From positions 1,361,369-1,425,368 of the forward strand of contig NZ_CP100445.1 in assembly GCF_024227435.1 (NCBI RefSeq): a DNA stretch of 64,000 nt, given 5' to 3'. Positions 56,076-58,330 of this stretch are shown one piece after another. The notes under the pieces were generated by a model. The model saw only the letters and a list, made by a program, of their open reading frames with translations, searched no databases and was not told the origin of the DNA. Both the position numbers and the translations under genes were made by a program. The DNA is from Natrinema caseinilyticum. GTDB lineage: Archaea > Halobacteriota > Halobacteria > Halobacteriales > Natrialbaceae. Each line of letters starts with the position of its first letter. Position 1 is the stretch's first letter.

Positions 56076-56480
56076 TCACGGGTTCCAGGTTTGGACTGTC
56101 GATTCTTCCCCTTGGTACGTTCCGACGATAGTTACTGTTTCATCGTCATGATCGCAACTGACTGTTTCCCCAACGTCTGTCAATGTAGGATTGGTCGCAT
56201 TTCCTTCACAATTGACAGTAAGGGATGTGCCATCGTCAATTCGGTCCTTTGAAATTAGAGAGACTTCAACAACGCCACTTGGCGCAGCTGCTTTATCGAA
56301 CTGTGCGCCTGCTGATGCAGATGCGCTTTGGCTTTGTCCTAAATCAAGGACAAAAGCCGCAATCACGGCTGCGAGGATGACCGTAATCGCTACCATGAGG
56401 ATAACCCCTATGACAGGCGATACGGCTCGTTCATCCTGTTCTCCGATCAACTTTCGTTGTATTGCTTTTCCGTCCGTCAT
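56076..56480 (-). CDS. Archaeal type IV pilin/archaellin-like protein
   Basis: A 134-residue pilin. The prepilin region MTDGKAIQRKLIGEQDERAV is followed by a 28-residue hydrophobic helix 'SPVIGVILMVAITVILAAVI...', the H-domain of haloarchaeal pilins (DUF1628-type). PibD would cleave before it. The mature domain is short, Thr/Ser/Asp-rich and has a Cys pair ('VNCEGN', 'VSCDHDD'). It may form adhesion pili; no pilus assembly genes are near. An ATG two codons upstream (56486) is also possible. Its codons are more A/T-rich than the housekeeping genes. Confidence 0.88.
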   Translation of the reverse strand: MTDGKAIQRKLIGEQDERAVSPVIGVILMVAITVILAAVIAAFVLDLGQSQSASASAGAQFDKAAAPSGVVEVSLISKDRIDDGTSLTVNCEGNATNPTLTDVGETVSCDHDDETVTIVGTYQGEESTVQTWNP

Positions 56481-56799
56481 TATCATGACACATCCGGCAT
56501 CGACGGCGAGAAAGCTTATCAGCACCCTACCCAAACCGAGGCTTGCGGACCAGGGGGATTGATAGCAACCTGCGTCCCCGCTTTCTCGAGCCGTCTTACC
56601 GATGCTAACGAAGAGGCGTCACCGGACCCATATATACGTAAGGGAAAGTCAGATTCGTCTGACCTGGAAACACTTTCAATCGTGATAATTAGCCACTGAC
56701 GGAAGGGTTACAACAGGTACTTGAACCGGTTCCGTCTGCCGATTTTGTCGGAAATTCAGGGCTAATAGAACTTGTGGCCCATCGAACAAATCCAACCGT
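56481..56799. other. Intergenic region with a TATATA box and a UUCG hairpin
   Basis: No gene. TATATA at 56631-56636 is followed by GTCAGATTCGTCTGAC at 56648-56663, a six-base-pair stem with a TTCG tetraloop. On the plus strand this hairpin straddles the predicted transcription start, so an operator or a start-site hairpin is possible. No clear coding product follows immediately. Confidence 0.4.
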
Positions 56800-57108
56800 A
56801 TGTCAAAATCGACTACAGTCACTCGCCTGCGCGGTCTCGCGCGCACCGCCGACGGCGGTCCCGGAGACGACGCGTGGCCGCTCGAGAACTAGTACCGACG
56901 GGCCGTTCTATACCAGACCGACAATACGGATGCCGAAATCGAAGAGATCGACGACGGGTCGGTGTCGCCTCGAGTCGAGACCACCTCGGTGATCTCCGGG
57001 GGACCGTCTCGACGTTCTCCAGAAAACCATCTCGGCGGTCTCCCGGCGCTGCTCGAGTCCGCGGGTACCCGTCAGTTCGACGGCTGGTCCGCTCGGCCAA
57101 CGAGATGA
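56800..57108 (+). pseudogene. Possible disrupted gene with in-frame TAG
   Basis: From ATG 56800 the frame reads 'MSKSTTVTRLRGLARTADGG' and about 30 residues before a TAG at 56890-56892. The same frame then stays open with G/C-ending codons and mixed acidic composition for another 71 codons to TGA at 57106. Coding-like sequence on both sides of a single stop suggests an inactivated gene. No family match, so this is weak. Confidence 0.25.
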
Positions 57109-57160
57109 TGGGTGATCGCGAGCGTGCCCGCGCGGGACGGCCGCGAGGTGTTCAGTAAGC

Positions 57161-57168
57161 TATAAGTA
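57161..57168 (+). promoter_or_regulatory. TATA box of the structured-leader transcript
   Basis: TATAAGTA in an A/T-rich stretch. Transcription should start about 25 bases on, near 57187-57190. That is immediately before the first base of the structured leader at 57192, so the fold would form the very 5' end of the RNA. Confidence 0.6.
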
Positions 57169-57191
57169 ACCAATGATAATCACCTAAATTA

Positions 57192-57266
57192 GAGGCACAG
57201 GACGGCCGATACGAAATCGGCCGGGTGTAAGGGCACCCGACCTGTGTCCTCGCATCCATTGAGGAC
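57192..57266 (+). ncRNA. Candidate structured 5' leader / RNA switch
   Basis: The RNA folds by eye into a three-way junction. P1 pairs 57192-57201 (GAGGCACAGG) with 57241-57251 (CCTGTGTCCTC), with U57247 bulged out. P2 pairs 57204-57210 with 57216-57222 (GGCCGAT/ATCGGCC) around a five-base loop ACGAA. P3 pairs 57223-57227 with 57234-57238 (GGGTG/CACCC) around a six-base loop. Only two bases join P1-P2 and P3-P1. The 3' arm of P1 can instead form a second hairpin: 57246-57251 (GTCCTC) with 57261-57266 (GAGGAC). That hairpin would hide the GAGG Shine-Dalgarno-like sequence just before ATG 57268. Two mutually exclusive folds, one masking the ribosome site, is riboswitch-like architecture. Not matched to any known class here. 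Confidence 0.5.
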
Positions 57267-57267
57267 A

Positions 57268-57462
57268 ATGTATACTCACACACCACCCTACGAAAGAATT
57301 TCGGAAGCTGAGGCCGAGAAAACGTCCGGAGAGCGCCTGCTACGCAGTTTTGCGGCATCACTCGAGGCCGAGCGAACGCCGTCTCCCGCGGTGTGCGTCG
57401 CCGCGGCAGATAGACCGACGGGCCCCGCCGATGACCGTCACGCGGAGGGCGACCGCACATGA
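57268..57462 (+). CDS. Small ORF under the structured leader (64 residues)
   Basis: A 64-residue protein from ATG 57268, MYTHTPPYERISEAEAEKTS, with a mid-protein helix ('GERLLRSFAASLEAERTP') and an acidic/polar C-terminus. GAGG lies three bases before the ATG, a short spacing but Shine-Dalgarno-like. No known domain. Its stop overlaps the ATG of the next ORF by four bases (ATGA), so the two are probably co-translated. Coding-like composition and coupling support it as a real gene, though it is small. Confidence 0.45.
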   Translation: MYTHTPPYERISEAEAEKTSGERLLRSFAASLEAERTPSPAVCVAAADRPTGPADDRHAEGDRT

Positions 57463-57644
57463 CGGATGGCCACCAGTTCACGCGCGTTCGACTCGAGGAG
57501 GTTCTCGGCGAGGTCAAGACGCTCGACAAGGAGCTTCCCGAGCCGATCACGATGCGGCCGTCGATCAAGAACATCGAGTCCACGATCGAGCTGTTCGAAC
57601 GGGTCGATTCCACGGGCGCCACTGCACGGGAGCGGACTCGCTGA
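57459..57644 (+). CDS. Small ORF, second gene of the pair (61 residues)
   Basis: A 61-residue acidic protein, MTDGHQFTRVRLEEVLGEVK, with two predicted helices ('RVRLEEVLGEVKTLDKEL' and 'SIKNIESTIELFERVDS'). It may be a small binding or regulatory peptide. The start overlaps the upstream stop (ATGA). No family is recognised. G/C-ending codons and acidic helices make it look genuine. Confidence 0.5.
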   Translation: MTDGHQFTRVRLEEVLGEVKTLDKELPEPITMRPSIKNIESTIELFERVDSTGATARERTR

Positions 57645-58330
57645 CGAACTCGATTACCGACTCAGTCAGTCTCCCCGATCAGGTCGGCGTCACCACGTCA
57701 CGGGCGTCTGAACGTCCGCGAAGCTGTCGGCCGTCGGCCTCGAGCGAATCGCCTCGATTCGCATCCGACGGGACTCACTCTGGCCGTCGAACGGCAGATC
57801 GGAGCCGGTTCTCGCGAGCCACCGCTCGAACGGTGAATCGACGACGTGATCGGCCGTGTGAACGCCTTTTCCAGTGGAAGCAGGCCCTTTCTCGAGCGTT
57901 GCCAAACGTTGTCGTATGTAACTTCCCCCCACCCTGCTCGCGTGTGTAACTGGTCGTCGATTCGGCCAGGTGGTTCTATGGTACGTACGACGCTGGCGAG
58001 AACGTCCAACTGCTCGAGGAGGCCAAAGAGAGCCGCGCAGAGAGACAAACGCCGCTCGAGTGCGGTAGTGCCGGCGAAGTGGCGATCGGTGGCCCGAGAC
58101 TCAGGACGGTGAGCACGAGGAGCGATAGACGCAGTCGAGGCGATAACCGGATGACGGCGGCGACCTGTCCGCGTCCGGGAGCCCCCGACGTACTGTAGAG
58201 GGCGGTCAATCCCTGGCTCATCGCTCGCTCCCGGCGGGAGCGAGGCGACCGATGGGCGGGCGGCAGAATATGGCGGGGATCTGATTGATAAGACGCGCGT
58301 GAGGCGCGCACGCTCGCGGAATCGACCGCA
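57645..58330. other. Gene remnant region of about 690 bases
   Basis: No intact gene is supported. On the minus strand 57690-57932 is an 80-codon open frame ('GVHTADHVVDSPFERWLART') with coding-like composition but no family. On the plus strand an open frame at about 57950-58198 carries 'LVVDSARWFYGTYDAGENVQ', then an acidic helix-like segment and an Arg-rich end. It begins right after a stop and has no start codon. Both look like fragments of accessory genes. Confidence 0.35.

Follow-up and report, generated by a model that had tools for sequence, protein, structure and literature searches.

Structured leaders are regarded as untypical of haloarchaea (PMC4983044). The question raised by the locus described here is whether the segment preceding a small gene of Natrinema caseinilyticum, proposed earlier to be a switch-like leader with two exclusive folds, is such an RNA and how it might act. 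The locus was analysed within a window of 64,000 nucleotides (contig NZ_CP100445.1, positions 1,361,369 to 1,425,368 of the forward strand), the numbering of which is used throughout. As a whole, the observations are best explained if the window copy belongs to a new, class-wide haloarchaeal family of cis-acting bistable mRNA leaders, a reading that we consider fairly likely. Such leaders probably turn on and off the translation of many accessory genes, often those of mobile elements, across haloarchaea.

A three-way junction and its rival pairing

The TATA box and the two small open reading frames overlapping as ATGA that the original prediction had described are present in the window (Table 1). 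The predicted three-way junction is both the minimum free energy (MFE) and the centroid fold of 57187-57270, at -39.2 kcal/mol. Shuffled versions of this leader reach -22.9 ± 3.3 kcal/mol (z = -4.98) and none of 200 shuffles was equally stable. P1 joins 57192-57201 with 57241-57251 through 10 bp and a bulged U57247, P2 joins 57204-57210 with 57216-57222, and P3 joins 57223-57227 with 57234-57238 through 5 bp, or 6 bp if C57222-G57239 closes it. The rival pairing that had been proposed for the 3' arm of P1 is found as well, between GTCCTC (57246-57251) and GAGGAC (57261-57266), beside the ATG at 57268. When the window RNA is forced into each fold, the energies are -37.2 versus -35.6 kcal/mol, a difference of 1.6.

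Table 1. Features of the leader and of the cassette that contains it, in window coordinates.
Feature	Position	Strand	Basis
TATA box (TATAAGTA)	57161-57168	+	sequence
P1 5' strand (strand 1), GAGGCACAGG	57192-57201	+	MFE fold; covariation with strand 2
P2 hairpin, 7 bp, loop ACGAA	57204-57222	+	fold
P3 hairpin, C-GGGTG...CACCC-G	57222-57239	+	fold
P1 3' strand (strand 2), CCTGTG-U-CCTC, common to both folds	57241-57251	+	
Anti-P1 strand (strand 3), GAGGAC; partner 57246-57251, hairpin against the start codon	57261-57266	+	three-strand covariation
ORF1, 64 amino acids, first gene behind the leader	57268-57462	+	
Part of the RNA element within ORF1 (codons 1-13), with a motif around codons 9-13	57268-57307	+	synonymous constraint
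ORF2, 61 amino acids, overlaps ORF1 as ATGA, conserved protein	57459-57644	+	
Dispersed cassette promoter-leader-ORF1-ORF2	57035-57653	+	blastn boundaries against genus paralogues

No Rfam 15 family was matched over the window. In the interval 56900-57600, the best matches were at chance level and none reached the gathering threshold. In 20 diverse homologous loci the single type of match was a tRNA, and no tRNA or tRNA-like element lies at the leader position. A known RNA family is ruled out by these searches of the window and of the 20 homologous loci, in agreement with the earlier failure to recognise a known riboswitch class. Absent from Rfam and, with one major survey not covered, without an earlier description in the literature searched, the leader family itself appears to be new. 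Competition between P1 and an anti-P1 strand is a mechanism already known from bacteria.

Covariation of the three strands

A blastn search of 100 relatives recovered all or part of the 161-bp region in 8 genomes, and several of these had many copies. Two covariance models were built, R1 from 24 leaders and the broader R2 from 95. In the 95 leaders, 95.0% of cells hold standard pairs, compared with 78.0% after shuffling and 34-43% with slid partners. Two-sided changes were observed in 18 of the 20 modelled pairs, and the covariation score is 0.500 against 0.176 for shuffled data. Two-sided changes affect six of the seven pairs of P2 and four of the five of P3, in which 99.6% of cells are paired. 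Sequence is also kept around the junction: J3/1 contains a nearly invariant A, the P3 hexaloop is conserved, P3 is flanked by GGC and ACC in most leaders, and 45 of 60 leaders have GAA within the P2 loop or next to it.

The alignment of the 95 leaders was fitted to the structure and therefore an alignment-free test was added, in which the duplex energy of a leader's own strands is compared with that of permuted partners. In a first set of 31 leaders under 80% alike, strand 2 pairs with its own strand 3 at -9.25 versus -4.60 ± 0.43 for permuted partners (z -10.8), and strand 1 pairs with strand 2 at -7.57 versus -5.05 (z -6.4). A second, largely separate set comprised 32 leaders under 80% alike from loci outside the training of R2, some from the same genomes, and gave z -9.6 for both pairings. 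Direct pairing of strand 1 with strand 3, which served as control, was rejected: it stayed at background in the first set and at z -1.2 in the second, as expected if both strands compete for strand 2. The covariation between strands 2 and 3 is not built in, because the model contains no such pairs.

In the window, strands 1, 2 and 3 read GAGG / GTCCTC / GAGGAC-AATG. Other leaders have, for instance, GAAGC / GCTTCTG / CAGAAGC-AATG, GAGACC / GGTCT / AGACC-AATG, GGCAC / GTGCCTT / AAGGC-AATG or GAGAAC / GGTTCTC / AAGAACC-ATG. Strand 3 resembles the outer part of strand 1, as is required of two strands that compete for strand 2. At the level of sequence, the decisive result is this three-strand covariation, in which the 3' strand of P1 is complementary both to the 5' strand of P1 and to the strand before the ATG. 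That homologues keep both pairings through different sequences confirms, as far as sequence comparison goes, an observation well beyond chance. Loss of pairing in homologues had been named beforehand as a possible refutation; pairing is preserved, and the prediction is not refuted. With the fixed position of the TATA box and the absence from Rfam, these data strongly support the switch-like leader with two exclusive folds.

The covariation also bears on the alternative of a DNA-level element (a transposon end, an attachment site or an operator), the inverted repeats of which would only resemble RNA structure. The leader is indeed multicopy and dispersed, and lies in places near integrases or resolvases. 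However, stems of many differing sequences are preserved, and the three-strand covariation contradicts such an element. Moreover, the spacing to the TATA box and to the start codon is fixed, the leader has the same orientation as the gene that follows it, and 28 of 29 genes of a SWIM zinc-finger family have it upstream. No constant terminal repeats were found and the leader lies inside the duplicated cassette. Covariation and geometry rule out a DNA-level element, to which we give next to no probability; the concern that the segment is a transposon end is likewise answered by stems that vary with pairing kept, between promoter and gene start.

Proposed masking of the start codon

In most of 60 non-redundant homologues, a TATA-like hexamer is found 24-32 nt before the first base of P1. 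Transcription is therefore expected to start within a few nt of P1 and, going by the position of the TATA box, should begin at or just before it. At the other end of the leader, the anti-P1 helix ends 0-1 nt before the ATG in 54 of the 60 leaders and measures 6-8 bp in most, and a mean of 5.8 bases of strand 2 are paired in both states.

The original interpretation as a whole stood in part. The window copy happens to have GAGG before its ATG, but a Shine-Dalgarno (SD)-like sequence was found in the last 12 nt of only 6 of the 60 leaders and the masked strand varies freely; what the family has in common is a hairpin that abuts the start codon. Masking of an SD sequence is thereby ruled out as the general mechanism, and what is masked is therefore the start-codon region. 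In line with this, SD sequences have been reported to play a weak role in haloarchaea (PMC8241225).

The RNA would first fold into the three-way junction closed by P1. The last 6-9 nt of the leader, a near copy of the outer 5' strand of P1, would displace that strand and pair with the 3' strand of P1 in a hairpin ending at the start codon, while P2, P3 and the four inner base pairs of P1 could remain in place in either state. In the closed-junction state, the unpaired stretch preceding the AUG would be accessible and translation presumably on; once the anti-P1 hairpin has formed, a 6-8 bp helix would end at the AUG and translation would presumably be off. Control would act at translation rather than transcription, and the inner junction, which would persist in both states, is the likely sensor.

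In 144 leaders the junction is favoured over the anti-P1 fold by a mean of 3.7 kcal/mol. The energy parameters apply to 37 °C and 1 M NaCl rather than to molar KCl, and this figure indicates no more than that the two folds are nearly balanced. The small computed difference in most copies is consistent with an RNA thermometer or ion sensor, in which temperature or salt would shift the balance of near-equal folds without any ligand. A simple thermometer would, however, need neither the conserved junction core nor the coding motif described below, and such elements rarely keep sequence conservation. We regard this explanation as improbable.

Distribution of the leader

With the covariance models (E <= 1e-5), the leader was found in at least 136 of the 382 genomes of Halobacteria searched, which represent at least 60 of the 85 genera. 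These counts are a lower bound obtained from 12 scored candidates per genome, and some of the matches that score below about 30 bits may be false. Among 393 genomes sampled across the phylum, 35 were positive, all in one and the same order. Twelve copies were detected in the window's own genome at E <= 0.01, of which eight are strong. By DNA similarity, the leader is also present in plasmids of Natrinema, Natribaculum, Natronococcus, Halalkalicoccus and Halopiger. In addition, it was observed in several IMG/VR contigs and in the tailed virus HJTV-4, the only cultured virus found with it, where it ends just before ORF48. Three downstream protein families gave no tblastn match in the phage collection.

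A second leader subtype precedes SWIM genes (L276:1428-1503, L268:1412-1503, L291:1413-1506 and similar). Its junction differs (GGACGG...GTGGCCTTC...AAAGCC-AATG) and its three-strand logic is unchanged. R2 scores this subtype at 18-30 bits, and the census is therefore too low.

Genes behind the leader

The 99 non-redundant downstream proteins belong to many unrelated families, including 12 SWIM zinc-finger proteins, two integrases and an HNH/HTH protein, as well as small cysteine-rich and other small proteins. Outside this locus, the leader thus directly precedes accessory genes, among them those for the SWIM zinc-finger, integrase and HNH proteins. Neighbouring genes encode integrases, resolvases, ParB and restriction-modification systems and include ordinary host genes, so that the surroundings resemble mobile islands more than any single defined element.

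Among the genes behind it, the leader is linked most strongly to the SWIM family. A search with the protein only yielded 29 loci, which come from named genera (Halosimplex, Halorubrum, Haloferax mucosum, Halobacterium, Haloarcula japonica, Haloquadratum and others), and 28 of these loci have the leader. These leaders, the second subtype included, nearly all end at or within about 12 nt of the match start.

Leaders were also observed directly upstream of two tyrosine recombinase (integrase) genes (L133:4142-4924, L244:7638-8512), the N-termini of which have the same or a similar register pattern to that described below. At L210:4943-5903, a copy of the leader immediately precedes a gene with weak similarity to csm3 (RAMP), and a cmr3-like gene comes next; this may be a type III CRISPR-like module behind the leader.

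Two marks of a riboswitch are found in this family: a conserved aptamer-like fold in the 5' leader, and an exclusive alternative pairing that reaches the initiation site, as seen from the three-strand covariation and from the helix ending at the AUG. In a strict riboswitch, the junction would bind a small molecule or ion and stabilise P1, with translation on as a result (or the reverse). The compact junction with its nearly invariant J3/1 A, GGC/ACC flanks, P2-loop GAA and P3 hexaloop would suit such a function, as would the typical P1/anti-P1 expression platform. However, few unpaired bases are conserved, no known class matches and no shared metabolic theme was seen among the downstream genes, which makes a strict riboswitch rather unlikely.

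Platforms of the P1/anti-P1 kind occur in translational riboswitches of the purine, SAM and preQ1 types. The leader resembles these in its 5' aptamer-like junction, the closing stem of which competes with an initiation-blocking hairpin, but it matches none of them in sequence or fold. Its masked strand has no conserved SD sequence and abuts the AUG, the element enters the open reading frame, and it is found on unrelated accessory genes of haloarchaea. According to one published account (PMC8241225), the fluoride (crcB) riboswitch RF01734 is the only natural riboswitch of archaea that has been determined by experiment. It is likewise an archaeal leader RNA presumed to act on translation, but the fluoride RNA is a small pseudoknot whereas the present leader is a three-way junction with no RF01734 match. 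Finally, ribosomal-protein leaders of Halobacteria such as the S15 leader (PMC7247131) are structured leaders from the same archaeal class. They differ in the genes they precede, as no ribosomal-protein family is among the 25 commonest Pfam and PHROG families listed for the 99 downstream proteins.

Extension of the element into the coding region

Across unrelated proteins, codons 1-13 follow a register-locked pattern in which codon 9 encodes E or a similar residue. Part of the constraint acts on the nucleotides themselves. GAA and GAG occur 47:4 at codons 8-13 versus 156:294 after codon 20 (p = 5e-16), and the third base of codon 11 is T in 46 of 60 cases versus 234 of 2133 elsewhere (p = 9e-31). 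This synonymous constraint places about the first 40 nt of the open reading frame within the element. In the most diverged genus paralogues, similarity spans about 57153-57307 plus ORF2.

Pairing of the coding motif with the leader was rejected, no covarying complementarity being found in any window compared (all |z| <= 1.6). A coding hairpin was rejected as a universal part, as only a subset of leaders forms one and the mean signal is weak, at z -0.78 ± 0.22 for +19..+42. At seven loci (L055, L139, L142, L210, L216, L242 and L264), codons 5-13 contain differing inverted repeats at the same place, possible hairpins about 19-36 nt after the ATG. The alphavirus downstream loop and other ribosome-stalling hairpins also lie within the open reading frame. 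The coding motif resembles these as a conserved element 20-40 nt behind the AUG, near the ribosome entry when the AUG is in the P site, but differs in that a hairpin is possible in only part of the leaders and a linear motif is conserved elsewhere. It is perhaps a ribosome-positioning or factor-binding site.

The coding motif also bears on control by a protein. A host or mobile-element RNA-binding protein would recognise the junction, and perhaps the coding motif, and set the winning fold. Most of the conservation falls on stem bases near the junction and on this motif of fixed sequence, and one leader type precedes many unrelated genes, as in a one-factor regulon. No candidate protein was found, however, and we see protein control as conceivable but not probable. 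Whether ligand, protein, or temperature and ions, each of these is an answer to what works the switch, and all are compatible with the bistable leader family favoured here.

At the locus itself, blastn against genus paralogues places the cassette boundaries at 57030-57153 and 57648-57657, a length of about 500-620 bp. Neither ORF1 nor ORF2 matches a Pfam family. Codons 1-18 of ORF1 have unusually few synonymous changes in most paralogue pairs, and from codon 19 onwards pN is close to pS among genus paralogues, almost neutral. In ORF2, pN is below pS in all paralogue pairs (e.g. 0.058 vs 0.347), indicating purifying selection. ORF1 may thus be chiefly a translated entry to the coupled ORF2, which would be the product that matters. 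ORF2 forms a small conserved genus family (TRVRLEEVLAEVETLDxxLPEPI). An archaeal type IV pilin gene lies upstream of the cassette (56076-56534, minus strand; Pilin_N E = 1.5e-16).

Possible significance and divergent copies

Bistable leaders in at least 60 of the 85 sampled genera of Halobacteria are at odds with the earlier published view. Tentatively, the family might represent a new class of regulatory RNA and the main one of haloarchaeal mobile elements, with a junction that senses a signal, an AUG-abutting hairpin that controls SD-independent initiation and a second motif in the open reading frame. If so, viruses, plasmids and islands would have a common translational on/off control. The findings point to a control layer common to archaeal mobile elements and offer a system for studying translational control without an SD sequence. 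The leader is a possible source of native switchable parts for haloarchaeal genetics, and the three-strand rule leads to simple and direct mutational tests.

Related RNAs with a long P1, in which CCGAGAC replaces the CCGACC junction, were observed at L087, L089, L091 and L256 and are perhaps a third subtype; some of them lie upstream of a conserved short peptide (TGYKHPARPRY). The copy L017:1541-1624 of the window's own genome (C1:1691882) is decayed: its P2 and strand 3 pairing are broken while its coding tag looks intact, and it is perhaps a dying cassette.
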